The notes beneath the pieces were generated by a model that had not been told where the DNA came from, did no database searches, and was given only the letters and a program-made list of their open reading frames with translations. Below are positions 5,504 to 26,725 of a stretch of DNA of 26,725 nucleotides, piece after piece; within the stretch, counting starts at the first letter, position 1, and every line of letters starts with the position of its first letter. This stretch comes from a virus: the IMG/VR virus record IMGVR_UViG_3300008122_000013, positions 1-26,725 of that record. One strand, 5' to 3'. A program made the position numbers and the translations under genes.

Positions 5504-7411
5504 ATGACAACAACAACTATGACACCATACCAAGAATACATTGGCAAGAGCCGTTATTCTCGCTACTTGGATGATAAAGGCCGTAGAGAGCACTGGCCTG
5601 AGACTGTAGCCCGATACTTTGACTTCATGACCAAGCACTTGAAAGATAAGCATGACTACACACTGACACAGCCACTACGTAACGAGCTGCAGTCTGCTGT
5701 GACTAACTTAGAAGTGATGCCATCAATGCGAAGCATCATGACAGCTGGTGATGCCTTGGAGCGTCAGAACATTGCTGGTTATAACTGTTCATACCTACCC
5801 ATTGATGATCCCAAAGCCTTTGATGAGGCTATGTACATTCTACTGTGTGGTACTGGTGTAGGCTTTAGTGTGGAGCAAAAGTATGTATCTAAGTTACCTG
5901 AGATTCCAGTTGATTTGTACAATAGTGGCACTGTCATTAATGTTAAAGACTCCAAAGAGGGATGGGCTAAAGCCTTACGACAAGTCATTGCCTTGCTATA
6001 TGCTGGTGAGATTCCAAAGTGGGATGTCTCCGGTGTTAGACCCGCTGGTGCAAGACTTAAGACTTTTGGTGGAAGAGCGTCAGGGCCTGAACCTCTCGTA
6101 TCCTTATTCCATTACGTCACTGCTAAATTCAAAGGGGCAACGGGCCGTAAGCTCACCTCGCTGGAAGCACATGACATATTATGTAAGGTGGGAGAAGTAG
6201 TTGTTGTAGGTGGAGTTCGTAGATCTGCCATGATCTCTCTGTCAGACTTGGGTGATGATCGTATGGCTCACGCTAAAGCTGGTAACTGGTGGGACGGTAA
6301 TGGTCAACGAGCCTTGGCTAACAACAGTGCCATCTACGAAGTTAAGCCTGAGGTTGGTAAGTTCATGCGTGAGTGGTCAAGCATTTATGAATCACATTCT
6401 GGAGAGCGAGGCATCTTTAATCGTTATGCAAGTGAACTTCAAGCAGCTAAAAGTGGACGTAGGGAATTGGGTAAAGAGTGGGGTACAAACCCTTGCAGTG
6501 AGATTATCCTTAGACCTTATCAATTCTGTAATCTGTCTTCTGTTATTGTTCGGAGCAGCGATAGTGTGGATACTCTACGGAATAAGGTGCGCTTGGCTAC
6601 TATTCTGGGGACTTTTCAATCGACAATGACTCACTTTCCGTACCTTCGTAAGGTGTGGCAGACAAACACTGAAGATGAGCGTTTGTTGGGTGTGTCTATG
6701 ACTGGTATCTTGGATAATGCACTGTTGAATAATCCTGACAGTACTGAACTACCTGCTATCTTGGAAGGAATGAAGAATGTGGCTATTGATACTAACGCTG
6801 AGTTTGCTGACGCTATCGGTATTAATCGTAGTGCTGCCATCACTGCCATTAAGCCAGAGGGGACTGTCTCTCAGCTTACAGGCACTGCTAGTGGTATCCA
6901 CCCTCAGCATAGTCAGTACTTTATTCGTCGTGTACGCTCTGATAACAAAGACCCTCTAACTGACTTCCTGAAGTCTCAAGGATTTCCTTCAGAGGCTTGT
7001 GTGATGAAGCCTGATAGCACAACTATCTTTAGCTTCCCCATGCGAGTTGAGAAGGGTGCTGTACTGCGTGAAGACTTGAATGCCATTAAGCATCTTCGCT
7101 TGTGGCTCCTGTTCCAGCGTCACTACTGTGAGCATAAGCCTTCAGTGACTATCTCAGTGAACGAGAATGAATGGCCTGAAGTTGGGGCTTGGGTGTGGAA
7201 TAACTTTGATGAGATTACAGGTGTGAGTTTCCTACCGATGGATGGTGGAACATACCGACAAGCTCCTTATGAGTCCATGACTGAGTTTGAGTATCACGAC
7301 ATGGTAGCCAATATGCCTCTAGGTATTGATTGGGATAAACTGGTTGAAGGCACTGACAACGTAGAAGGTGCTCAGCAGTTGGCCTGTACCGCTGGCGTAT
7401 GTGAGATATGA
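5504..7411 (+). CDS. nrdJ: Adenosylcobalamin-dependent (class II) ribonucleotide reductase, monomeric type
   Basis: 635-aa enzyme reducing ribonucleotides to deoxyribonucleotides to supply phage DNA synthesis, using vitamin B12 coenzyme and no oxygen. Active-site residues align with the Lactobacillus leichmannii RTPR: C95 (YNCSY), C331 and E333 (TNPCSEI), C342 (FCNL). C331-C342 spacing of 11 equals C408-C419 of that enzyme. The C-terminal re-reduction pair is C628-x4-C633 in CTAGVCEI. A phosphate-binding PEGTVSQLTGTASGI region lies at 451-465. It is about 100 aa shorter than RTPR (739), about 53 of these missing between C95 and C331, where RTPR holds its allosteric insertion. AAAGGA lies 11 bases upstream. 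The last four bases overlap the next gene. Confidence 0.95.
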   Translation: MTTTTMTPYQEYIGKSRYSRYLDDKGRREHWPETVARYFDFMTKHLKDKHDYTLTQPLRNELQSAVTNLEVMPSMRSIMTAGDALERQNIAGYNCSYLPIDDPKAFDEAMYILLCGTGVGFSVEQKYVSKLPEIPVDLYNSGTVINVKDSKEGWAKALRQVIALLYAGEIPKWDVSGVRPAGARLKTFGGRASGPEPLVSLFHYVTAKFKGATGRKLTSLEAHDILCKVGEVVVVGGVRRSAMISLSDLGDDRMAHAKAGNWWDGNGQRALANNSAIYEVKPEVGKFMREWSSIYESHSGERGIFNRYASELQAAKSGRRELGKEWGTNPCSEIILRPYQFCNLSSVIVRSSDSVDTLRNKVRLATILGTFQSTMTHFPYLRKVWQTNTEDERLLGVSMTGILDNALLNNPDSTELPAILEGMKNVAIDTNAEFADAIGINRSAAITAIKPEGTVSQLTGTASGIHPQHSQYFIRRVRSDNKDPLTDFLKSQGFPSEACVMKPDSTTIFSFPMRVEKGAVLREDLNAIKHLRLWLLFQRHYCEHKPSVTISVNENEWPEVGAWVWNNFDEITGVSFLPMDGGTYRQAPYESMTEFEYHDMVANMPLGIDWDKLVEGTDNVEGAQQLACTAGVCEI

Positions 7412-12206: not shown

Positions 12207-13193
12207 TTAACCGATTGTCTGGAAGTATGGATTAACTGTTTGTTGATAGTTAGAACTACCTCTAGATAGACCACTAATTAACTGACTGATAGGGTCTGTT
12301 AAGCCACCAACTACAGCATTGTTACGTTGCATCTGCAAAGCTGCTGCCTGTTGTGCTGCAGCATTCTGAATGTTAGCTGCTGCTGTAGAACCTGCTGTAA
12401 TAGATGAACCCAATCCTAAACCTTGAGTCAAAGCATTCTGACCTAAGTTTTCAATATTAGATGCACCTGCCATGTAGTTAGTGTATGGAGCTAGAGCTTG
12501 TGTCTGCAAACCATAACCAGCACCTTGAAGATTCAAACCACCAGTCATCAATCCTTGACCGAACTGTACTTGTTGATTGCCGAATGTCTGAGCATTAGCA
12601 GCTAACTGAGCATCTTGTTGTGCACGAGCATTCATTGCCGCTGCAATAGTAGGGTTAGTAGCCGCTAATCCGGGATCACCTGCTGCATAACCTGCCATAG
12701 TTCCACCGGTAGCTAGACCCATACGTCCTTGCTGTTGTTGTTGGTTATACAACTGAGCCATCTGTTGTTCACGACCGGGAGCAAGTAACTGCTGCTGCTG
12801 AGTCATGTATGCTTTAGCTACATCTTCAGGAGTCTTTTGAAGATACTTAGCACCTAAGTTAAACAGTCCTTGACCAGCTGTATTTATACCTGTCTGAGCA
12901 GCCTGTTGTGCTTGAGCTTGACCGATACCAGTACCAGCTAAGCCCATTAGACCTTCACGAGCTGCAGCTACGTCAGGAGCTACTTGATAACCAGCACCAA
13001 TCAGCTGTCCAGTTGTAGGGTCATAGTTAAATCCTGACTTACCGAACCTTGTAGTAACTCCTACAGGACGGAACTGTGCAGCCTGTGCAGCCTGTGCAGC
13101 AGCGTTAGTGGTAGCATTAGCAGCTTGATTAGAGCTATATACACTACCTGCAGTGCCCAACAATGGGCCAATTAAGTCTGTCCAATCAGCCAT
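12207..13193 (-). CDS. Putative internal virion / ejection protein, Ala/Gln/Gly-rich (328 aa)
   Basis: Low-complexity but clearly coding. The N-terminal 40 residues begin MADWTDLIGPLLGTAGSVYS and then an Ala/Asn/Gln run; a short ordered domain follows (about 41-80, with FRPVGVTTRFG and YDPTTGQL). Poly-Gln stretches occur near 132-156, and Ala/Gly/Gln-rich repeats run to a C-terminal tyrosine-containing tail. Small hydrophobic Ala-rich podovirus proteins in this position (like T7 gp14 or P22 gp7) are ejected to form a channel. Assignment is by composition and gene order only. Starts by TAATG overlap with the preceding gene. Confidence 0.6.
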   Translation of the reverse strand: MADWTDLIGPLLGTAGSVYSSNQAANATTNAAAQAAQAAQFRPVGVTTRFGKSGFNYDPTTGQLIGAGYQVAPDVAAAREGLMGLAGTGIGQAQAQQAAQTGINTAGQGLFNLGAKYLQKTPEDVAKAYMTQQQQLLAPGREQQMAQLYNQQQQQGRMGLATGGTMAGYAAGDPGLAATNPTIAAAMNARAQQDAQLAANAQTFGNQQVQFGQGLMTGGLNLQGAGYGLQTQALAPYTNYMAGASNIENLGQNALTQGLGLGSSITAGSTAAANIQNAAAQQAAALQMQRNNAVVGGLTDPISQLISGLSRGSSNYQQTVNPYFQTIG

Positions 13194-15844: not shown

Positions 15845-16075
15845 TTATTTAACTCCATTAAATTTACTATCAATAGCTAAGTAAATAGCTCCAAAGAAAG
15901 CACCTATGATGATAATAGGTTTAACAGCTTTAGCGATCCATTCGAGTACTTGGAAAGCTCCTGAGGCTGCATTAAAGGCTTGAACAACCTCTTGTGTATT
16001 CTTCTCTATGTTGTCTACCTTAGCTTCAACAGCTAGTAGACGCTCATAGATTTGCTCATGGCTTACATCGCTCAT
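15845..16075 (-). CDS. Small membrane protein, XhlA/holin-like topology (76 aa)
   Basis: Residues 1-35 form a coiled coil (EQIYERLLAVEAKVDNIEKN), 40-52 an amphipathic segment with a Trp, and 53-70 one membrane helix (PIIIIGAFFGAIYLAI) followed by a short charged tail. This order resembles XhlA-type holin accessory proteins and some phage membrane proteins of unknown role. It sits among tail genes about 7 kb from the main lysis cassette. It overlaps the tail chaperone stop by four bases (ATGA). Holin activity is only a possibility. Confidence 0.7.
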   Translation of the reverse strand: MSDVSHEQIYERLLAVEAKVDNIEKNTQEVVQAFNAASGAFQVLEWIAKAVKPIIIIGAFFGAIYLAIDSKFNGVK

Positions 16076-16569
16076 GGCGCATCAGGCCAAGTAATAGTCC
16101 AAGGGAAACCTGTCTGCGTAGTTACATCACGCAAGGCTTGACGATAGGTAGCCCATACTGCTTTGTCAACAGGAGCGTCCGCTACTTGTGTCCAATCACA
16201 GTCTTTCAGTTTCTCATCTCTTGAAGCACGAACACTCTTAGCCTGTTCAGCATCCTTAGAAGCCTTGTAAGCCACTTCTTGTTCAGCAGCAGTAGTAGTT
16301 ACACTATCTACCACTTGGTCAATGAAGACAGGGCCAAGGATGTACTTTGTGTACCACTTACCATCTACTTGCTCAACACCTTGTGCTTGAGAGTATTGGT
16401 AAACAGTTCCACCAGTAGCTTGTGCGCCTTCAAAGACTACATCAGCACCCAGAGCCTCTAAGACCTCAGTTGTTGTTGTATCCCATGATGGGCCTCCATT
16501 GGCTTTTGTGTATGCACGAAATTCACTCTCGTACATTACTGCGCCTGTTGATTGGATTCTTATTTGCAT
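16072..16569 (-). CDS. Phage tail assembly chaperone-like protein (165 aa)
   Basis: Start at ATG 16569, with GAGGT 7-8 bases upstream. The C-terminal third contains the segment SRDEKLKDCDWTQ-like (around 120-133), then DAPVDKAVWATYRQALRDV and a final FPWTITWP, which is the signature of the tail assembly chaperone/tail fibre assembly family (Phage_tail_APC-like, recognised from memory). The N-terminal half is beta-rich, with MYESEFRAYTKANGG. It lies immediately downstream of the 670-aa fibre-like gene (10-base gap), so it probably assists folding or attachment of that protein. Confidence 0.8.
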   Translation of the reverse strand: MQIRIQSTGAVMYESEFRAYTKANGGPSWDTTTTEVLEALGADVVFEGAQATGGTVYQYSQAQGVEQVDGKWYTKYILGPVFIDQVVDSVTTTAAEQEVAYKASKDAEQAKSVRASRDEKLKDCDWTQVADAPVDKAVWATYRQALRDVTTQTGFPWTITWPDAP

Positions 16570-16579
16570 TTTAATTACC

Positions 16580-18592
16580 TCAAGCAATTGCTAAAAAGAT
16601 GTATGTGCCACCACTTGCATTGATAGCGGCTGGCGCAGTTGAACTAATTTCAAACCCTGCGCTGTATGTGTCTATGTAGTCTGTATTGGTTACTTCAACA
16701 GCTGAAGTGTTTAAAAGCAAGTAAGGGTCATTACCGCTTACGATGCCTCGTGCTGAATCCCACACATACCACGAACCAGTTGAGTCTGTGCGCTTAATAA
16801 GAACGAACCTCGCACCGCCTGTAAAGCCACAATCAATTTGCTTAGTAGTGGCTGTGCCTGTGTAGCTTCCTACTTTGGAAACACCAGCGCAGGTTGCAAA
16901 TAGGTAGGCAACGTAAGTTGACGCAGACGCATTAACAGCATTATTTGTTCCTACAGAAAACACAGAAGATGTTGGGCTTGTGTCATTCCAATAAGTATTA
17001 TCATCTGCGGTAGCTGCAGTCGTATCTAATACTAAATAATCTGTGTTGTCGTTGTTGGCATATACAGCCCAAGCATTTGATGTACTTCTACGCCTAATAA
17101 TCATTAACTCAGGTACTGCCGCCAAGTTATGCGTCACAGTTCTGTTTGCTCCTGTCCCTGTATAGCAAACCTCATCAAAAAACGATGGAGCACGTTTGAA
17201 GAACTGTGTTACATAATCTGTACCACTTTCATTAAATGAACCAGTAACAGCATCAGTACCTAGTGAAATTCCATTCATATCAAACGATGTTATAGCAGTG
17301 GAGTCTCCAGTTCCTTCAGCACTATCTGAAGATGGGTATAAATGAACTGTTGAGCCTCGCAATCTATCTTTGAATGTTGTTCCATTAGCCCTTGTTCTAG
17401 CCTGACCCATTACAAAATCAGGAGCAAATCCAACTCCAGTAACAGTATCAGCAGAGCCTGTTCCTGTGTAAGTAATGGCTTTATAAACACTAGTCCCACT
17501 CGTAGGCACTTTCATCGGGCCTCTACGAATGGCTATGTAGATGTAGGTGTCACCAGAAGTATTGACAGTACCACCTACTGTATTGATTTGAAATCCTGTT
17601 GCGGTTGGGGCAATAGTAAATCCACCCGATTCAGCATTAGATAAATTAGGTCGTAAATACTTGGTATTTCCCGTATTTACATCGGATGCAGGCATTCCAC
17701 GCATATTGTCGTACATAATCCAATTGTCTGCTATAGTTGCGTTTTTGACCATCAACCATTGCGGTTCGTAGCCAAGCGTAACATTGTTACCAACAGCCCC
17801 TGTACCCGTATAACTCCCACACGAAATCACATTGTCTGTACCAGTTAGGCCAAAGCCTCCTGCGTTGTGGGCAAATAGGTAGGCTACGTAGGTTGCTCCT
17901 GCTGTATTCATAGCATTGCCAGAAGCATCGTTTACAAGGGCTGGAGCAAAACTTGTACTTGTCATTGCAGAAGAAAAGTTCTGATTTGTATAAAGCGCTG
18001 AGCCAGTTGTATTTAAACTTAGTCCGGTTACAGATGCACTAACAGAATTAGCCCGATGCCAAACACCCCATGCAGAAGTGCTATCAGTTCGCTTACAAAT
18101 AATACATCCGGGCACAGAGCCTAAATTATGTGATACACCAGCACCGGGATATGGGACATCCCCAGAATAAGTCACAACATCAAAGAACTTAGGTGCTTTT
18201 GCAAAAGACCAAGAAGCGTATGTATAACTTGATTTATTTGAATCGTATGTTCCAGCGCCTAAATTAAATCCATTTGTATTGAAGGCTGAAACGTATGTGT
18301 TTAATGCCGAATAAGAATCTGTTGCATTAGAGTAAAGAACATTATTAGTACCGCGAACAGTATCTACAAGCGCGTGCCAACCGTCGTATGTTCCTGTTGG
18401 ATTTGTTCTGCTTTTTGTCCAAACCAATCCTCCTTTAGTGGAAAGGTCAATTCCATTGTTTATACTTTGTGTTGCACCTGTACCTGTGTATAAATACGTA
18501 GAAAACACATCCTCAATGTAGTTAGGCACAACAGGAACACCACCACCAAAGGCATCGTAACTAGCCGCACCAGAAGTTGCTTGTAATGGCAT
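16580..18592 (-). CDS. Fibre-like virion protein with six ~100-aa beta repeats (DUF7483-like)
   Basis: 670 aa made of about six tandem domains, each opening with a Y-T/S-G-T/D-G strand (YTGTGATQ at about 35, then near 142, 257, 366, 471 and 582). Each continues with a hydrophobic strand (for example FAPDFVMGQAR, PELMIIRRR, RFVLIKRTD), a Trp-x-x-x-D or -x-RG turn, and closes with a Tyr-rich strand (YVAYLFA, YIYIAIRRG, YIFLAIA). I recognise this as the DUF7483-type repeat seen in phage tail/receptor-binding proteins (from memory). Repeat sequences have diverged, so expansion is old. It follows the fibre ORFs and precedes a tail chaperone; a role in host surface recognition is likely. Confidence 0.78.
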   Translation of the reverse strand: MPLQATSGAASYDAFGGGVPVVPNYIEDVFSTYLYTGTGATQSINNGIDLSTKGGLVWTKSRTNPTGTYDGWHALVDTVRGTNNVLYSNATDSYSALNTYVSAFNTNGFNLGAGTYDSNKSSYTYASWSFAKAPKFFDVVTYSGDVPYPGAGVSHNLGSVPGCIICKRTDSTSAWGVWHRANSVSASVTGLSLNTTGSALYTNQNFSSAMTSTSFAPALVNDASGNAMNTAGATYVAYLFAHNAGGFGLTGTDNVISCGSYTGTGAVGNNVTLGYEPQWLMVKNATIADNWIMYDNMRGMPASDVNTGNTKYLRPNLSNAESGGFTIAPTATGFQINTVGGTVNTSGDTYIYIAIRRGPMKVPTSGTSVYKAITYTGTGSADTVTGVGFAPDFVMGQARTRANGTTFKDRLRGSTVHLYPSSDSAEGTGDSTAITSFDMNGISLGTDAVTGSFNESGTDYVTQFFKRAPSFFDEVCYTGTGANRTVTHNLAAVPELMIIRRRSTSNAWAVYANNDNTDYLVLDTTAATADDNTYWNDTSPTSSVFSVGTNNAVNASASTYVAYLFATCAGVSKVGSYTGTATTKQIDCGFTGGARFVLIKRTDSTGSWYVWDSARGIVSGNDPYLLLNTSAVEVTNTDYIDTYSAGFEISSTAPAAINASGGTYIFLAIA

Positions 18593-18595
18593 GGT

Positions 18596-19471
18596 TTAAG
18601 CCTTAAATTGTGTGTTGCTTGCCAAGACTGTGAAAGTCGCACTACCTGTCTTGATTAAAATATAGCGGTAACTGTCTATTCCACTTGCATTTCCCGCAGT
18701 AGGCGCACCACCTAGCCACCTAGTAGTCACTCCAGATGTAGTGCCATCAACTTGCACAGCAGAGTTATAGTAAGCAGTAGAGCCTTGAGTCACCAAGAAA
18801 GCCACAGTCATTGATTGACCTGTACTCATTAAAGTATTCAATGACGTACCGCTAGAGGCTCTAAAGTTAACTGTCCAGTTAGCACTTGCGTTACTTGTGT
18901 AGTACAAGACTGACTGAGTGGTAATGTCGTAGTTAATCGTTCCAGTAGCCGCAGTAGCTGATACTGTTGCTACCTCTGCTGCATCGTTTAGAACAATGGC
19001 AGTAGCAGATGAAGTACCTGTAAAGAGAGTCTCAGTACCTGCAAGTGTAGCAAAGGAGCCAGCTGTTAGAGTAGCTTGAGTCCATGCTGAACCACTCCAC
19101 ACCCATAAGTTAGATGATGTTGAATTCCAGTACAGAGCACCTGTAAGTAGAGTATTACCATCATTGTCCACTGATGGAGCTGAAGACTTAGGGCCTAAGT
19201 AGCGATCATCAAAGCTATCATAGGACGCTGCAGCTGAACTAGCAGAAGCACTGGCTGCAGAGGCTGATGATGAAGCTGCAGAGGCTGAGTTACTTGCATT
19301 GGTTGCTGATGTTGCTGCTGCAGACGCTGATGTAGCTGCTGATGTTGCACTACCTAGAATACTGTCAACATACACTTTAGTTGTTAAGTCAGCATCAGCA
19401 CTTGGAGTTGCTGTACTTGTAACCTTGTTAGCACCCATGACAATGTTACCTGTCATAGTTCCACCTGCCAA
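18596..19471 (-). CDS. Tail fibre, C-terminal fragment (out of frame with its upstream half)
   Basis: 291 aa from TTG 19471, but that start has no ribosome-binding site. The reading frame continues open upstream for 17 codons into the end of the 225-aa ORF, encoding DATTKTYVD and DAKLA, a normal fibre repeat. I therefore read this as the distal part of one fibre. Contents: LAGGTMTGNIVMGANKV repeat, a coiled-coil-like Ala/Ser run (about 40-83), a DRYLGPKSSAP linker, an ALYWNST...LWVWSGSAW beta domain (about 110-132), and a C-terminal beta domain ending TQFKA. The extra base at 19523-19524 is what separates it from the N-terminal half. Confidence 0.75.
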   Translation of the reverse strand: MAGGTMTGNIVMGANKVTSTATPSADADLTTKVYVDSILGSATSAATSASAAATSATNASNSASAASSSASAASASASSAAASYDSFDDRYLGPKSSAPSVDNDGNTLLTGALYWNSTSSNLWVWSGSAWTQATLTAGSFATLAGTETLFTGTSSATAIVLNDAAEVATVSATAATGTINYDITTQSVLYYTSNASANWTVNFRASSGTSLNTLMSTGQSMTVAFLVTQGSTAYYNSAVQVDGTTSGVTTRWLGGAPTAGNASGIDSYRYILIKTGSATFTVLASNTQFKA

Positions 19472-19524
19472 GGCTAACTTAGCATCACCAACACCATCTA
19501 CGTAGGTCTTAGTTGTAGCATCAA
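19472..19524 (-). other. Frameshift junction within the tail fibre gene
   Basis: The 225-aa frame ends GCT GGT TGA; the 291-aa frame runs on as GAT GCT ACA ACT AAG. Removing a single T (19523 or 19524 on the - strand) gives GCT GGT GAT GCT ACA, joining both halves through 17 codons without a stop into a 533-aa fibre. Codons in between encode a recognisable fibre repeat, so the join is biologically sensible. The site is only a two-base T run, not a long homopolymer, and no upstream Shine-Dalgarno-like stimulator is obvious. Confidence 0.8.
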
Positions 19525-20198
19525 CCAGCTAGGGGAAGCTTAGCAGCAATAGAGTTAGTGACAGTAGTGGAGAATGAAGCATCATCATTCAAGGCTGCAG
19601 CAAGTTCATTTAAGGTATCCAATGCTGCTGGAGCACCATCAACAAGATTACTAATAGCTGTATCTACGTAGCCTTTAGTGGCTGCATCACCTGAGTTAGT
19701 TGGAGATGTGAGGTTAGTAATAGTGGCTGCTGAGGAAGCATCCATGTTCAAGCCACCGTTAATGGTAACATCATTGAACGATGAAGTACCTGTGGAGGCT
19801 GTTACGTTACCAGTTAAGTTACCTGTGACGTTGCCTGTAACGTTACCTGTCAAGTTACCAGTTACGTTACCAGTCACAGCACCTGTGATAGCACCTACAA
19901 AGCCTGTCGTTGCAGTTACTGTAGTACCTGTAATGGCTGCAGCTGTAGTGCCACCAATGGGTGTATTATTAATTGTACCACCAGTCTGAGCTACTCCAGC
20001 TACAGTACCACCTGTAATGGCAGCTGCTGAAGCTTCTTGATTACCTAAAGAGCCAACAATCCTAACAACTGTACTTGAATTATCTTTAGTGTACAGCTTC
20101 TTATCTGTTACGTTAATGGCTAACTCACCCTTAGTTAAGTCTCCAGCTGCAGGTGTAGCAGATGCTGTACTGCTATTCTTTGTAATGATCGTTGTCAT
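19521..20198 (-). CDS. Tail fibre, N-terminal part (truncated by frameshift)
   Basis: 225 aa. The N-terminus (MTTIITKNSSTASATPAAGDLTKGELAINVTDKKLYTKD, here described over residues 1-39) is a common phage fibre attachment module with a GELAINVTD-KKLYTKD signature. Then come Thr/Gly-rich shaft repeats, including a TGNV/TGNL array (about 109-133), and an AATKGYVDTAIS segment typical of fibre repeats, ending in KLPLAG and a stop. In related fibres LAG is followed by GTMTG; here the frame breaks. ATG abuts the stop of the SGNH gene. As it stands the product lacks the distal, receptor-binding end. Confidence 0.8.
   Translation of the reverse strand: MTTIITKNSSTASATPAAGDLTKGELAINVTDKKLYTKDNSSTVVRIVGSLGNQEASAAAITGGTVAGVAQTGGTINNTPIGGTTAAAITGTTVTATTGFVGAITGAVTGNVTGNLTGNVTGNVTGNLTGNVTASTGTSSFNDVTINGGLNMDASSAATITNLTSPTNSGDAATKGYVDTAISNLVDGAPAALDTLNELAAALNDDASFSTTVTNSIAAKLPLAG
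19800..19874 (-). repeat. 12-bp repeats encoding T-G-N-V/L fibre shaft units
   Basis: About six successive 12-base units encode Thr-Gly-Asn-Val or Thr-Gly-Asn-Leu. Such units probably build an extended beta-helical or triple-stranded shaft, and the near-identical DNA units are prone to expansion and contraction, changing fibre length in frame. Confidence 0.8.
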
Positions 20199-22637
20199 TT
20201 AAGCTCCGTATGTAGAGTTGTACCATTGTGCCAGCGGTGTAGCAACATCACGAGGCACTGCTGGAAGTAATCTGTTATAGTTTTGTTGAATAGCGTTATA
20301 GTAGTCTGCAGTGTTCAAAGGTACACGCTGAGTTGGTAATGCACCTACTCCACCTGTACCTCCAGTGCCTCCACCAGAAGTGAGTGCAGCTCCTCCTAGA
20401 AGTCCTCCAACACCACCTACTATGTTAGCAATTTGACCGGGAGTTAGATTACTTAGTATATTTTCAAGACCAGTGCCTACACCTGTCGATGGCAATACTG
20501 TTCCACCTGTTCCATAGACGCCCATGCCAGCATCTAAGGCAGATAAACCAATGTTACCAGTATTAGGATAAACACCCATGCCAGCATCCAGAGCACTTGG
20601 AATAATGTTGCCAGTATTGGGATAAACGCCCATGCCAGCGTCTAATGCACTAGGAATAATATTTCCCGTATTAGGATAAACGCTCATGCCAGCGTCTAAG
20701 GCACTTAAACCAATGTTGCCAGTATTGGGATAAACGCCCAACCCTGCATCTAAAGCAGATAAACCAATGTTGCCAGTACTGGGGTAAACACCCATTCCCG
20801 CATCTAGTGCGCTTAATCCACCAGCAAGACCACCTGCTGTACCACCTGTTCCATAGACACCCATGCCAGCGTCTAATGCAGATAAGCCTCCAGCGATGCC
20901 TCCTGCTGTTCCTGCCGCCCCTGTTCCATAAACGCCTAAACCTGCGTCTAATGCACTTAGACCTGCCGTACCTGCAGCACCTGCAGTAGGCGCACCAGCA
21001 GCAAATAAACTAGGTGCTGCCAAACCTAAACTTGCAATTGCAAGTAATGGAGCGTACTGTTTAAATTCAGAACTTGACTCACCACCTGTATAAAAAACTG
21101 GAGTGCCGTCAGGAGCAAACTGAACTCGATAGCCTGTCTTACCTTTACCTGCAAATGTCCCGCCAAATGCGTCAGCTCCTGTTTCGTAGTTATTTGCAAT
21201 GGCTTGGCCTGTAAGTTTATTGCCGAATGTGGTTTTCCCAGTGTCTCCAACTAACTTTCCATCCACTGTCTTAATTTTTGATTGGTCAACTGGTACGTAA
21301 GATGAACCATACTCACCACCACCATCTCTAGCAACACCATAAACAGTTTCAAGTTTTGCATCTTTAGGAACTTCAACCACACGCATTTCAGGGCTTGTGT
21401 ATTCTCCAGTATCCGTACTGTTATAAGTCAGCGTTTTCCCTGTAGGCTCGTAAATATAACTAGAAGTTTTGCCGTCTTCATCAGTTTGGGTAAAAACTCG
21501 TTTTCCGTTGTATAGCGTATCAATTGGTACTACAGGCTCTAAATCAGGAATTACACCAAATTGTTTAATGTCAGTAATGCCAGCATCAGACAGAAGTCTA
21601 GCCATGTCAGCAGCATTGGCTTCAGGAGAACCTAAACCTTGCCCAGACCATTGGCTTGAAGTGCCTTGAGCAAGAATCTGATTTTTAATTTTAGTTACAA
21701 TGTCTTCTGGTGCTGTTGTTGCTCCTGCTACAGTTCCTGCTGTTGCTTGGTTATCCAATAATGATGGTGTCTGAGCCGCTGCTACAGGAGGAGTAACAGA
21801 AATAGCTTTAGGGGCTACTCCAGTAGTGGTTGTTTTAATAGCATCAGCTAAGTTAGTACCCAATAAACCATAGGTAGCAGCCGTTGGGTGAACAGGGTCT
21901 GCGGCTGAAGTAGCATTAGATAAACCACTTGTATATGTATATTTATCATCTAATGTTGAACCTGTTTGCTGAGAAACACTTCTAACAACATCAGCGTATG
22001 TACCAACATTCTGTGCCCAAGCATCGGTAGAACTTGTAGAGTTAGGTGTCTGAAGAATAACCTTTTTACCTACAGCTTGTAGTGTCTGAACAGCAGTTAA
22101 AAGATTGTTAGCAAATGTTGCAGGGTCTTCATTGCGATATGCCTCGTTCATACCATAGTTTAAAACTACAGTACCAGCACCACTTGATAATGCTTTATCA
22201 AAGTCAGAACTGTTTAAGAAATCTCCAGCAGTTGTTGAGTTGATACCCAAGTTAGAAACAGAGTAATCGCTACCTAGAGCCTTTTGAGCTGTAGTAACCA
22301 TGTTTTCTGCAACTTGATTACCTTGGTTATAACCCCAAGTCGTAGAGTCTCCAACAGCTACAACCTTTTTAGGGTCAATTTGTGTAGCCAAAGGATTAGC
22401 TTCTATATATGCAGCAACTGCTTGAGAATTAGCAGCTTGCGGTTGTTGTTGAATAGTAGCGGCTACAGATTGATTAAAGTTAGCATATAACTGGTCAGGA
22501 GACACAACACCAGCTTTAAGAGCATCTAACCAAAAATTATAGCCTTCAGTATCAATTTGACCAGCAGCATTACCCATGCCAGTCCTACCAATAGAACTAT
22601 AGGCTCCTTGTACAATATCTTCATAGGATAAAGCCAT
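20199..22637 (-). CDS. SGNH/GDSL hydrolase-domain virion protein with tandem repeats (812 aa)
   Basis: N-terminal residues about 1-60 (YEDIVQGAYSSIGRTG, then IDTEGYNFWLDALKAG) resemble a DUF4214-like adhesin module. Residues 90-268 are an SGNH hydrolase: block I GDST with nucleophile S98, G131 in block II (NLGINS), N164 in block III (GMNE), and D247-x-x-H250 in block V, so the catalytic set is complete. It should remove acyl esters, plausibly from host capsule or O-antigen. Residues 559-708 hold eight copies of SALDAGxGVY, the last six in an exact 18-residue period. Gly-rich linkers and a C-terminal LPAVPRDVATPLAQWYN segment follow. It sits directly before the fibre genes; the virion location is inferred from order and an AAGGTGA-driven start. 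Confidence 0.82.
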   Translation of the reverse strand: MALSYEDIVQGAYSSIGRTGMGNAAGQIDTEGYNFWLDALKAGVVSPDQLYANFNQSVAATIQQQPQAANSQAVAAYIEANPLATQIDPKKVVAVGDSTTWGYNQGNQVAENMVTTAQKALGSDYSVSNLGINSTTAGDFLNSSDFDKALSSGAGTVVLNYGMNEAYRNEDPATFANNLLTAVQTLQAVGKKVILQTPNSTSSTDAWAQNVGTYADVVRSVSQQTGSTLDDKYTYTSGLSNATSAADPVHPTAATYGLLGTNLADAIKTTTTGVAPKAISVTPPVAAAQTPSLLDNQATAGTVAGATTAPEDIVTKIKNQILAQGTSSQWSGQGLGSPEANAADMARLLSDAGITDIKQFGVIPDLEPVVPIDTLYNGKRVFTQTDEDGKTSSYIYEPTGKTLTYNSTDTGEYTSPEMRVVEVPKDAKLETVYGVARDGGGEYGSSYVPVDQSKIKTVDGKLVGDTGKTTFGNKLTGQAIANNYETGADAFGGTFAGKGKTGYRVQFAPDGTPVFYTGGESSSEFKQYAPLLAIASLGLAAPSLFAAGAPTAGAAGTAGLSALDAGLGVYGTGAAGTAGGIAGGLSALDAGMGVYGTGGTAGGLAGGLSALDAGMGVYPSTGNIGLSALDAGLGVYPNTGNIGLSALDAGMSVYPNTGNIIPSALDAGMGVYPNTGNIIPSALDAGMGVYPNTGNIGLSALDAGMGVYGTGGTVLPSTGVGTGLENILSNLTPGQIANIVGGVGGLLGGAALTSGGGTGGTGGVGALPTQRVPLNTADYYNAIQQNYNRLLPAVPRDVATPLAQWYNSTYGA
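20514..20963 (-). repeat. 54-bp coding tandem repeats (SALDAGMGVYPNTGNI units)
   Basis: Eight coding units with the core SALDAGxGVY begin at protein residues 561, 586, 609, 627, 645, 663, 681 and 699. The last six are spaced exactly 18 codons (54 bases; regular part about 20514-20819). The DNA copies differ mostly at third positions, with a few amino-acid exchanges (GL/IP before SALDAG, M/L and G/S), so the array is partly diverged rather than newly duplicated. Confidence 0.92.
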
Positions 22638-22642
22638 AATGC

Positions 22643-22975
22643 TTATTCACCTTTTCTATATAGTTCAAACGTGTTGGTAGCTGACATAGCGGATGCAGCT
22701 TCAGGAGTAATCCTCACTTGATCACCTTCTTCAAGGACAACAAAAGCACCACCATCAAACCTGAGATATTGTGTGGTAGCTAACTGGTAAGCATCAACAA
22801 CTACAATCTCAGTATCTGCACTTGAGTCATACCACCAAACACTTACAGTTTTGTTATTACCTGTATGATTTGAGATAAAACAAAGGTTCCACTTAGCATA
22901 GTAGCCCGTTGGAACTGTGTATACAGTAGTCTTAGAGCCAGCTGTTAGGTTATTACCCGTTGATACTGGTTTCAT
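22643..22975 (-). CDS. Small beta-rich structural protein (110 aa)
   Basis: The sequence is beta-rich: an N-terminal TAGSKTTVYTVPTGYYAKW strand pair, FISNHTGNNKTVSVWWYD, a Y-x-L turn, then GGAFVVLEEGDQVRI, ending FELYRKGE. The VPTGY...NHT...WYD...VLEEGD pattern resembles a small structural protein often found between capsid and tail fibre genes in marine podoviruses (remembered, not checked). It may be a capsid decoration or a neck protein. It overlaps its upstream neighbour by 23 bases and ends six bases before the SGNH gene. Confidence 0.7.
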   Translation of the reverse strand: MKPVSTGNNLTAGSKTTVYTVPTGYYAKWNLCFISNHTGNNKTVSVWWYDSSADTEIVVVDAYQLATTQYLRFDGGAFVVLEEGDQVRITPEAASAMSATNTFELYRKGE

Positions 22976-23132
22976 CTTGTTTCACTGTTTTCTTAGATGA
23001 TGTTGTTACTTTAGGAGCTTCAACTACCACTTCAATAACTTCAGTGTAACCAGTGTGTTTCCTCATCTCAGCAATCTCATGCTCTTGGAAGAACTCTACT
23101 GTGTTACCAGATTGAATACATTTGAATTTCAT
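22953..23132 (-). CDS. Small hypothetical protein (59 aa)
   Basis: The frame starts at ATG 23132, with AAAGG about 8 bases upstream, begins MKFKCIQSGNTVEFFQEHEI, and continues with AEMRKHTGYTEVIEVV before a Lys/Thr-rich tail. It fills the otherwise empty stretch after the capsid terminator and overlaps the next gene by 23 bases. The opening (MKF.CI.SGN..EF..EH.I..MR.H..Y.EV) is a pattern I recall for a conserved small protein beside podovirus capsid genes. Function unknown. Confidence 0.75.
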   Translation of the reverse strand: MKFKCIQSGNTVEFFQEHEIAEMRKHTGYTEVIEVVVEAPKVTTSSKKTVKQDETSING

Positions 23133-23171
23133 TTGCTGTTACCTTTCTGATGTACTAAAGAGTAATACATT

Positions 23172-23201
23172 AAAAAGGCTCCCTCCTCGTGAGAGGGAAC
23201 C
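23172..23201 (-). terminator. Intrinsic terminator after the major capsid gene
   Basis: On the - strand GGTTCCCTC (23201-23193) pairs with GAGGGAGCC (23185-23177), nine pairs with one G-T wobble, around a 7-base loop, and is followed by TTTTT (23176-23172). It begins about a dozen bases after the capsid stop codon (23214). Partial termination here would raise capsid mRNA relative to downstream tail genes. Confidence 0.9.
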
Positions 23202-23213
23202 CTTAAAGTCTAC

Positions 23214-24173
23214 TTAGACGGGAACCACGAGGGCAACGCCACCGTAGTTACGCAGCTCAGCGCAACCGTACAAAGTATCAGCTGTGAACAATGTACCGAG
23301 GTACTCTTGTTTGTACTGAGTCTGTGAACGGACACCAACTTGCTCAACCAGAACCATAGAATCTTTGTGAGCCATCAAGCACACACGACCCAAGCTAGTA
23401 CCGGAACCATCAGCAGCAGACTTAGCTGTGCCAGCATTAGACGAAACGTAGACTGGAACACCATAGATGTCACCAATCATGCCGTTACGGATGCTGTTAG
23501 CAGAACCAGCTTCACCAACGCTGTTGAAGGTTGTGAACTCAGTCAAACCGAGGATAGTGTTACGTACATTTGGGGGAATCAAGAAGAAGCGGTTGTCCAT
23601 AGGAACATCGCTGTCATCAAGACGCTGAATTGTACGACGAATACCAGCAGCTGTCAAAGTGGAGGCATTGCCAGCACCAGAGGAGGCTGAGTAGTCAAAC
23701 GCTGTAGAACCGTCAGCACCAACAAAAGCACCAGCGTAGCGGAAGTTACCTGCGCCAGCTGTTGAAACATTGAACTGTTGACCCAAGTTTACCAAGTCAG
23801 TATCAACTTGACGACCCAAAGAATAACCAGCATCATCAGTGTAGAACTGACGGAGGCTAGACAATGCTTGAGCTTCAACGATGTCCTCAATCAAACGTGA
23901 GTACTCGTAGTGCTTGTTGATAGAGATAGTTACTTCTGATTCAGTAGCTGCGATGAGTGTAACTTGTGTAGAAGCTGCCTTAGCAGAAGCTGTGCCACGT
24001 GCAGGGACTGGAATGTGAACTACGTCACCTTTCTTGCCCTTGAAGCTCATCTTCTTAACTAGGTTAGCTGCAACCAAGCTCTTTTTGTACGCAGCAGCAA
24101 TCTCGTCACTCCAAACTTCTGGAATAAACGTTGCTGCTGTGGTACTCGTTACGTGATCTGTTCCTAATGCCAT
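23214..24173 (-). CDS. Major capsid protein (HK97-fold, podovirus type)
   Basis: The 319-aa shell protein begins MALGTDHVTSTTAATFIPEVWSD as a typical N-terminal arm. It then has AAYKKSLVAANLVKKMSF, KGDVVHIPVPARG, a HYEYSRLIEDIVEAQA helix and FYTDDAGYSLGRQVDTDL, a combination characteristic of capsid proteins of marine podoviruses and related phages (recognised from memory). The length fits an HK97-fold subunit without a fused scaffold. Codon use is cleaner and more GC-rich than its neighbours, as expected for the most highly expressed gene. AGGAG precedes the ATG by about 9 bases, and a strong terminator follows. The scaffold gene lies immediately upstream. Confidence 0.88.
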   Translation of the reverse strand: MALGTDHVTSTTAATFIPEVWSDEIAAAYKKSLVAANLVKKMSFKGKKGDVVHIPVPARGTASAKAASTQVTLIAATESEVTISINKHYEYSRLIEDIVEAQALSSLRQFYTDDAGYSLGRQVDTDLVNLGQQFNVSTAGAGNFRYAGAFVGADGSTAFDYSASSGAGNASTLTAAGIRRTIQRLDDSDVPMDNRFFLIPPNVRNTILGLTEFTTFNSVGEAGSANSIRNGMIGDIYGVPVYVSSNAGTAKSAADGSGTSLGRVCLMAHKDSMVLVEQVGVRSQTQYKQEYLGTLFTADTLYGCAELRNYGGVALVVPV

Positions 24174-24222
24174 TTTAAAATTCTCCTGATGTGAATTAAA
24201 TTAATATTTACTTTACCCTTTA

Positions 24223-24240
24223 GTGTGAATTATTTCACAC
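24223..24240. promoter_or_regulatory. Perfect 18-bp dyad with CRP-family core (TGTGA-N6-TCACA)
   Basis: GTGTGAA (24223-24229) and TTCACAC (24234-24240) are exact inverted repeats around four bases; the core reads TGTGA, six bases, TCACA, the consensus half-sites of CRP/CAP-family regulators. It overlaps the scaffold stop codon, about 55 bases upstream of the capsid ATG. On the - strand a TTTAAT (24200-24195, five of six -10 matches) lies downstream, putting the dyad centre near -43, close to the class II activator position. It could instead be an mRNA hairpin. No T-run follows, so it is not a terminator. Confidence 0.5.
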
Positions 24241-25045
24241 GTCCTTCAGAGTACGCAGCCATAATCTCAGGTTGCAGTGCCTCATAACGGTCAGGATCTT
24301 GCATACGTAGCCGGATAAGGTCGGCACGACGATATACTTTCTTAGCAGACTCTCCAGTTCCCCCAACATCGACACCAGCTGCTTTCAGATTCTGTTTGCG
24401 AACAGCGTTACCTGCTTCAGTAGTTTGTTGTGTCTTAGATGTACGGATCTGTTTGAATGTAGAGAGAAGTTCATCAGCTGCACCAAAATCATAATTAGCA
24501 TCTGCCATTGCGTAGATGTTGAGCCTCATTGGAGAAGCTTTAACCCACTCAATAAACTCACCATCACGTACAATATCTGCAAAGTCAGGATGCTTCTTGT
24601 TGAGCATTGCTTGTGTCTGAATTTGCTTTAACTGTAATGATGCCTGTTTAGCGGCAATTACGTCAGGATGATTCGCTACAGCACGATTAACGTGACTCTG
24701 CGGATCTTCAAAGAAATCAATCTCTTGTGAGGCGTTATTTACCTCATTTGGTTGAACTTGTTGTTGATTCTTTTGAGCTATGCTCTGTTTGATGAGATCA
24801 TCAGCTAAACGCCTAACTTCACCAACTTCCTGTGCTTGCCTACCAATTAGCTTTTCAGCCTCTTGGTGCATACGAACAATATCTTCGAGATTCTTCCCCT
24901 TGTATTTCTCAGGGATCTCTTGTTGTGGAGCTTGCTCTTCACTTGGTTGTGGTGTCTGTTTAGCATTTGAAGACTGTTGTTTAAAGTCCTCAGCTTCTAT
25001 CTCACTAACGTTACCTAGTTCCTCATTGCTATCAATTAAAGCCAT
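24230..25045 (-). CDS. Capsid scaffolding protein
   Basis: This 271-aa protein is highly charged and Gln/Glu-rich, with an acidic, disordered N-terminal 60 residues, coiled-coil stretches (around 60-155), and a basic C-terminal helix-turn-helix-like end (KKVYRRADLIRLRMQD, DRYEALQPEIMAAYSEGR). The last part matches the C-terminal capsid-binding end of podovirus scaffolds as I know them. It lies directly upstream of the capsid gene. I choose ATG 25045 over GTG 25066, because the former has AAAGG/AGGT close upstream. It should direct procapsid assembly and leave before DNA packaging. Confidence 0.8.
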   Translation of the reverse strand: MALIDSNEELGNVSEIEAEDFKQQSSNAKQTPQPSEEQAPQQEIPEKYKGKNLEDIVRMHQEAEKLIGRQAQEVGEVRRLADDLIKQSIAQKNQQQVQPNEVNNASQEIDFFEDPQSHVNRAVANHPDVIAAKQASLQLKQIQTQAMLNKKHPDFADIVRDGEFIEWVKASPMRLNIYAMADANYDFGAADELLSTFKQIRTSKTQQTTEAGNAVRKQNLKAAGVDVGGTGESAKKVYRRADLIRLRMQDPDRYEALQPEIMAAYSEGRVK

Positions 25046-25114
25046 ACCTAACCTTTCCCTGTCCACGTTGATGGATTACAGGATAATTTCAAAATAAAAT
25101 TGGGTTGCCTGAAG

Positions 25115-25351
25115 CTATTCAGATCCTCTCTTTTGTTCCTGCTTGAGCCTGTCAGCTCTCACAGCAGCCCACTTAGCCGTTGCACCGGGGAAGTCACCAG
25201 ATATGGCATCTAACCCAATGGTAGGAGCTGAAATGAGCCTGATAGCGTCCTTACTACATACTTTGCATTTAGCAGTTGTATGATCGCTATCTACCAGCGA
25301 TTCAGTTATGTGATTGTTGGGACATAAGAAATCATAAAGACGTTTACTCAT
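25115..25351 (-). CDS. Small zinc-ribbon protein (78 aa)
   Basis: A possible zinc site is formed by C10 and H14 (CPNNH) with C29 and C32 (CKVC), an FmdB-like ribbon. The C-terminal half (PTIGLDAISGDFPGATAKW, then RADRLKQEQKR) is a conserved-looking helix with basic residues; proteins like this occur between portal and scaffold in many podoviruses and myoviruses. Function unknown, possibly a nucleic-acid or virion assembly factor. The ATG overlaps the stop of the upstream gene by four bases. Confidence 0.72.
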   Translation of the reverse strand: MSKRLYDFLCPNNHITESLVDSDHTTAKCKVCSKDAIRLISAPTIGLDAISGDFPGATAKWAAVRADRLKQEQKRGSE

Positions 25352-25578
25352 CCTTGTAGATCCTCATATACCTTCTCACACACAGCCTTACGCCCTAAAA
25401 CCAATTCAAGAATATCTAACTGTCCTTTACGATAATGTAGTGTTTGTGTATCGTTGACAGTAGAAATATCGTTTAAACTAGCCTTAATCTCTTCAAAGTC
25501 TTCAATTAAGAAGTCCCAACCCTTAGTACTCATGGTATTAAAGGTTTCTTCGTAATACTTTTGTAGGTCTTTATCCAT
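25348..25578 (-). CDS. Small hypothetical helical protein (76 aa)
   Basis: Acidic, helical protein: MDKDLQKYYEETFNTMSTKG, then WDFLIEDFEEIKASL, a short loop with NDTQTLHYRKGQL, and a final helix. The STKGW and HYRKGQLD motifs recall a conserved hypothetical protein between portal and scaffold in T7-like marine phages (unverified). Translation starts at ATG 25578 with AAAGG about 10 bases upstream. It is the first - strand gene downstream of the endonuclease insertion and must be reached by portal transcripts crossing that gene in antisense, or by a local promoter I cannot identify. Confidence 0.68.
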   Translation of the reverse strand: MDKDLQKYYEETFNTMSTKGWDFLIEDFEEIKASLNDISTVNDTQTLHYRKGQLDILELVLGRKAVCEKVYEDLQG

Positions 25579-25636
25579 TTAAGGAGAACCTTTCTATAGT
25601 TTATTAAACAATATTAATATTTTATCATAAAAAGAC

Positions 25637-25666
25637 TTGACATGCACTAGTAACATGTGCTACAAT
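25637..25666 (+). promoter_or_regulatory. Strong sigma70 promoter for the HNH-like gene
   Basis: Perfect -35 TTGACA (25637-25642), 18-base spacer, -10 TACAAT (25661-25666, five of six). Transcription should start near 25673, about 24 bases before the ATG at 25697. The spacer contains an interrupted dyad GCAC-N9-GTGC (25644-25660), which may be chance. The promoter points against the surrounding late operon. Confidence 0.8.
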
Positions 25667-25696
25667 TACGTTTTAACTTAAATAAAAAGGATTACT

Positions 25697-26254
25697 ATGA
25701 CATTTAGGTATAAAACTACATCTCAAGAGCGTGAAAACATGTTGCAATGGCTTCGTGAAGGAGTCTCATACACTGAAATATCTAAGCGTTTAGAGGGTAA
25801 ATTAACCAAGCAACGTATCAAACAAATAGCTCAAAAGAACAATATTGATGCTTTTCAGATACGTCAAACTATTAAAACAAAGGAATATACCGATAGAATG
25901 TTTGCTAAGAATGGATCTAAATGGAATGATCCTGAGTTTACTAAGTCTTTAATCTTTCAATCTATGAAAGAGAAGTTTCGCAACAAGAAAGGTAACAAAT
26001 ATGGATGGGAATGGACTATTGAGTTTGGAGATCTTGAGTTTCCCTCTCATTGTCCAGTATTAGGTCTTGAACTTGATTACTTTACAGAAGGTAAAGGACG
26101 TTTAGAAAACTCAGTATCCTTTGATCGTGTAGATCCTACTAAAGGTTACATTAAAGGTAACGTTATTGTGATGTCTTGGAGAGCCAATCGCATTAAAAAC
26201 GATGGAACTTCCCAAGAACACCAACAAATTGCTGACTTTATGCGCTCTTATTAG
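25697..26254 (+). CDS. HNH-like (homing-type) endonuclease with N-terminal HTH
   Basis: 185 aa on the strand opposite to all flanking genes. Residues about 8-50 look like a helix-turn-helix (QERENMLQWLREGVSYTEIS, then a second helix with KQRIKQIAQKNN). Residues 115-169 hold a CPVLG motif (119-123), and SFDRVDPTKGYIKGNV followed by MSWRANRIKND, a pattern I know from a group of phage HNH-type nucleases (S-x-D-R-I/V-D-P-x-K-G-Y). The AAAAAGGA site is 6 bases before ATG, and it has its own sigma70 promoter. Its last 17 bases overlap the end of portal in antisense. Independent expression, reversed orientation and HNH motif suggest a mobile intron-less homing gene; the cut site is unknown. Confidence 0.72.
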   Translation: MTFRYKTTSQERENMLQWLREGVSYTEISKRLEGKLTKQRIKQIAQKNNIDAFQIRQTIKTKEYTDRMFAKNGSKWNDPEFTKSLIFQSMKEKFRNKKGNKYGWEWTIEFGDLEFPSHCPVLGLELDYFTEGKGRLENSVSFDRVDPTKGYIKGNVIVMSWRANRIKNDGTSQEHQQIADFMRSY

Positions 26255-26725
26255 CTTTAGTCATCATCTGAAGGCTTGCAATACGCTCATTTGAGGCAAT
26301 ATCAGCAGCTTTCAGGTTAACTTGCTTCTCTTTAAGCATCATGTCAGCCAGTTTCAGACGCTTCTCAAAGTCATCACCTCTGTCTAGGTTAGTAGATGCA
26401 GCTTGAACGAGCTTTACACGCTGCTCTTCAGGAATCATCTGAGCTTCAATCATGGTTTTCTGAGCCTCAGCTGACTGTTTCTGAGCCTTAGAAGTCAAAT
26501 CAGCCACCTGAGCCTGTGCCAGCTCCATTGCAGCCTGTTGTTGCATCTGTTGAGCCTCAGCAGCCTGTGGGTTAGGTTGAGACATCTGATCCAGAGCCTT
26601 CATCAACTCACCACGGTTAGACAATGAGCTATTCTGCAAGATACCTTTAAGGATCAATGGCAATACTGGTGTATTTGGGCCTAAGGTCTGCAACAAACCA
26701 ATCATCTGTTGTTGTTCAAACTCTC
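26238..26725 (-). CDS. Portal protein, C-terminal part (cut by window edge)
   Basis: The frame is open to the right edge, so only the C-terminal 162 or so residues are visible. They begin EFEQQQMIGLLQTLGPN and continue with ILKGILQNSSLSNRGELMKALDQM, then Gln/Ala-rich coiled coil (PNPQAAEAQQMQQQAAMELA, then a long charged helix) to the stop. Long Gln/Ala-rich C-terminal helices of this kind are the barrel region of podovirus portals, and the position upstream of scaffold and capsid fits. The ring would occupy one capsid vertex for DNA entry and exit. The N-terminal two thirds and the terminase lie beyond the window. Confidence 0.75.
   Translation of the reverse strand, partial: EFEQQQMIGLLQTLGPNTPVLPLILKGILQNSSLSNRGELMKALDQMSQPNPQAAEAQQMQQQAAMELAQAQVADLTSKAQKQSAEAQKTMIEAQMIPEEQRVKLVQAASTNLDRGDDFEKRLKLADMMLKEKQVNLKAADIASNERIASLQMMTKANKSA

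Follow-up and report, generated by a model that had tools for sequence, protein, structure and literature searches.

Comparison of a linear IMG/VR viral fragment of 26,725 bases, the whole stretch analysed here and called the window, with related viral contigs leads us to posit that its split tail-fibre gene is probably the product of local misassembly in a repeat-rich, strain-variable gene, and that the phage genome most likely carries one 586-aa tail-fibre gene, like the near-identical records L160 and L002. We prefer this reading because the junction that breaks the frame is absent from other viral contigs, both joins are blunt, a divergent block lies between them, sister records carry comparable scars and the C-terminal frame is undecayed.

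The fibre gene as read in the window

The fibre reading frame is broken at GGT-TGA (window 19526-19521), where the bases across the first of two joins read CTAGCTGGT-TGATGCTACAAC. The features concerned are as follows.

19521-20198, minus strand: N-terminal part of the tail-fibre gene, 225 aa; ATG start; TGA stop at 19523-19521, created by join 1
18596-19522, minus strand: C-terminal part of the same gene; 308 codons open, giving 291 aa from the first TTG and 286 aa from an ATG at 19456
19523-19524, minus strand: join 1; 71 bp (GGTACTATG...GCAGGAAC) absent, present in L002, L003 and L160; no microhomology; frame lost
19025-19026, minus strand: join 2; 87 bp (29 codons) absent, present in L160 and L002; no microhomology; in frame
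19115-19204, minus strand: patch of 10 SNPs relative to L003 and L160, all synonymous, the rest of the 8.2 kb being near-identical
20199-22637, minus strand: upstream 812-aa structural-region protein carrying tandem repeats and a GDSL lipase/esterase domain (context)
16580-18592, minus strand: downstream tail-fibre/structural protein, DUF7483 (context)
16072-16587, minus strand: tail-fibre assembly chaperone-like protein (context)

ORF reading places the 291-aa ORF at 18596-19471 on the minus strand with TTG as its first start, and the 17 codons between it and the 225-aa ORF (DATTKTYVDGVGDAKLA) are part of the frame open from 19522. These coordinates bear out the claim of an earlier note on this DNA that the two ORFs belong to one fibre frame, and its arithmetic is correct: dropping one T joins 225 and 308 codons into 533 aa (225 + 17 + 291). 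The same note had given the 291-aa ORF a TTG start only, with no ribosome-binding site. TTG is indeed the first start, but direct reading of the sequence shows that the in-frame ATG at 19456 is preceded, four bases away, by AGGTGG. That AGGTGG is probably a coincidence, because within close intact relatives the same bases encode a conserved Gly-Gly-Thr-Met. The ATG would suit two fibre genes each with its own start, yet relatives whose sequence spans the region have a single continuous ORF, as does the cultured phage CRP-1, and we regard such an arrangement as scarcely conceivable.

Judged from the L160 protein, the intact gene encodes a phage tail fibre of a familiar, ordinary type; only the break sets the window's copy apart. 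This protein matches the tail-fibre family phrog_38058 (E 3.8e-32) as well as phrog_454 (6.1e-14), phrog_7032 and others; P0001 matches phrog_1197, a tail protein (1.4e-17), and the tail-fibre family phrog_454 (4.1e-14), and P0002 matches phrog_38058 (1.3e-31). The gene's position among tail genes, adjoining those for the DUF7483 fibre protein and the chaperone-like protein, agrees with this assignment. A Pfam search of the fibre returned no match.

Intact relatives and the two joins

Relatives were gathered by a viral-contig search with each ORF half. Three of them, L160, L003 and L002, are nearly the same phage. L160 (the full record of L004, IMGVR_UViG_3300032050_002620) is 99.83% identical to window 19524-26725, the differences over these 7.2 kb being three SNPs and a 9-bp repeat indel, and L002 (IMGVR_UViG_3300032116_012463) is 96.9% identical in the N-terminal part; in both, the fibre is a single 586-aa ORF, not the 533 aa previously proposed as full length. 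The 225-aa ORF is 100% identical to L003 and L160 up to window 19524. Exactly between window 19524 and 19523, L160/L004, L003 and L002 have 71 more bases, which in L160 and L003 are GGTACTATGACAGGTGCTATTGCAATGGGTACGTCTAAGATTACTGGCTTAGGTACTCCAACTGCAGGAAC and amount to a fibre repeat unit; in a protein alignment, the repeat that full-length relatives carry at this position reads GGTMTGAIAMGTSKITGLGTPTAGTDATTK. Comparison with related phage genomes, which the earlier note had recommended, thus revealed 71 bp absent from the window and, in the relatives, a fibre frame uninterrupted at this point. A single extra T, the lesion first suspected, was rejected on the evidence of these sister records.

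The wider set agrees. The frame was followed in about 88 loci from relatives, some of them on the same contig, with N-terminal halves 57-100% identical: every one stays open past the position of the window's stop, and codon 226 is a stop in none of the scored relatives. The fibre ORFs of L003 and L060 are shorter, ending much further downstream and each by its own frameshift. In L060 this frameshift falls near codon 390, with a stop at codon 400, and the protein continues in another frame.

Join 1 is blunt on either side, with 0 bp of microhomology, and a search with the junction sequence found it in no other IMG/VR viral contig. Join 2, the second loss within 500 bp, is likewise without any flanking homology, and the search of other records for it returned only two unrelated chance 17-mer matches. 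Between the joins lies the block 19523-19026, the only divergent stretch of the 8.2 kb compared with L160. All 10 of its SNPs are synonymous, with a chance expectation of about 1.6e-6 if SNPs are independent, and the C-terminal frame is stop-free with no decay seen; together these observations indicate that the C-terminal part was under coding selection until very recently. A search for the window's SNP allele brought up no other record of this strain; the only hits were L168 and L169, distant loci at 71-74% identity.

Sister records carry scars of their own. L003 lacks 183 bp at window 21371-21189, in the neighbouring 812-aa gene, with blunt ends. It also carries a 5-bp duplication, CTTTA, exactly where join 2 falls in the window and the right-hand piece starts (CTTTACAGGTACTTC), which looks like two contig ends abutted with their overlap left unmerged. 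In the near-identical record L171, the gene at window 12207-13193 is short of 51 bp (17 codons, window 12978-12928), and the two sides of that join share 1 bp of homology. Of these length changes, 51, 87 and 183 bp are divisible by three, and the 71-bp loss and the 5-bp gain are not, a sample too small to judge real deletions by.

Assembly, deletion and recoding

We suggest that the contig consists of three separately assembled stretches (up to 19524; 19523-19026; from 19025 on) placed end to end, which would lose 71 bp at join 1, breaking the frame, and 87 bp at join 2, keeping it. The synonymous SNP block makes the middle piece look like a strain variant placed between two others. Both flanks align to independent records with sub-kb gaps (71 bp and 87 bp relative to L160 and L002, 71 bp relative to L003), and we infer from the combined pattern that the assembly, rather than the phage, made the joins. 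The earlier note had listed assembly error beside frameshifting and phase variation; that option is the best supported, but with 71 bp lost as its cause and not one T gained. Two considerations count against misassembly. First, de Bruijn assembly normally depends on k-mers common to both pieces, and an overlap-free join therefore points to a scaffolding or gap-closing step; second, similar blunt indels in near-identical records from several samples could reflect real illegitimate recombination in a mixed population.

The second consideration bears on a real and recent 71-bp deletion in one lineage, a loss of function leaving a 225-aa stub, possibly with a C-terminal piece made by re-initiation. 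The record as deposited reads this way, its flanks are otherwise clean and fibre gene length varies between strains. We nevertheless consider such a deletion unlikely: it would have arisen with zero microhomology beside a second such loss within 500 bp, no other record has the junction, sister records bear similar scars, the SNPs in the C-terminal frame are all synonymous, and loss of the fibre in a lytic phage should meet strong counter-selection. Were the deletion true, the phage would have a disrupted host-recognition protein, and the ATG at 19456 with its upstream AGGTGG would permit re-initiation. That the lineage lives with a split fibre, pairing an N-terminal stub with a C-terminal receptor-binding piece produced from this ATG or by low-level frameshifting, strikes us as very improbable.

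Repeat-driven switching, or phase variation, would toggle the fibre on and off, and the gene does contain TMTG repeats whose number varies among relatives. In L005, which differs in repeat number, a real-looking deletion respects the register of the repeat units and preserves the frame, as slippage or recombination between fibre repeats would produce, unlike the window's joins: join 1 has no direct repeat, does not fall in a simple repeat and does not keep to the register of the fibre repeats. The same off state is found in no record, and we hold phase variation to be exceedingly doubtful.

Programmed +1 ribosomal frameshifting at GGU-UGA, raised earlier as a means of making both a short and a long fibre, would profit from the intact downstream frame. 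The first 100 nt downstream also fold somewhat better than shuffles (z -2.1), but this fold is mildly stable and not specific, and a stable hairpin appears only about 45 nt downstream, in sequence common to intact relatives. GGU is a poor +1 slip codon, at which the P-site tRNA-Gly would need to re-pair on GUU. The GGU-UGA site occurs in the window record only, its stop being made by the join, all scored relatives read through in frame, and no Shine-Dalgarno-like element lies upstream. Such recoding seems to us highly implausible. A conserved frameshift was rejected: the site is absent from relatives, and the combination of slippery codon and stimulatory element was not found.

If misassembly is indeed the cause, the case carries a caution: what looks like a frameshift in the fibre gene of an uncultivated phage contig can be a join made where the sequence is rich in repeats and varies between strains, and setting sister contigs side by side can expose it even without reads.

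Neighbouring variable sites and known systems

Other sites in the window also vary between records. The 812-aa protein (20199-22637, minus strand) has the tandem repeat SALDAGMGVYPNTGNI and differs in length among records, with the 9-bp indel at 20975. Near the C-terminus of the chaperone-like gene, window 16111-16225 (minus strand) shows about 60 differences from L003 between near-identical flanks, and record L170 begins close by, at window 16233; this stretch is a strain-variable block and a point where assembly probably breaks. At window 7569, in the gap between two convergent genes whose ends lie near 7411 and 7606, an extra 18 bases in L170, absent in the window, hold the inverted repeat GTGGC-ATA-GCCAC beside a terminator-like T run.

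In virome assembly, repeats, hypervariable host-interaction regions and strain variation lead to fragmentation and misassembly (PMC6350398; PMC11094077). Assembly benchmarks define a local misassembly by a gap under 1 kb on the same strand (PMC6350398), and the two flanks of this repeat- and strain-rich gene align likewise, here by contig comparison. The near-identical uncultivated phages L160/L004 and L002 share with the window the same protein in the C-terminal part and N-terminal 225 aa that are 100% identical, but carry the two stretches that it lacks (71 bp and 87 bp) within a single ORF of 586 aa. More distantly, the Roseobacter phages CRP-1, CRP-2, CRP-13 and others (for example QBQ72452.1) encode a putative tail fibre protein with a similar repeat-bearing central region, 73-80% identical to residues 111-225 in six phages and 65-70% in two more. 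In the cultured roseophage CRP-1 the related fibre is a single CDS, as in the intact relatives, but it is longer (3243 bp) and its N- and C-terminal parts are unlike those of the fibre described here.
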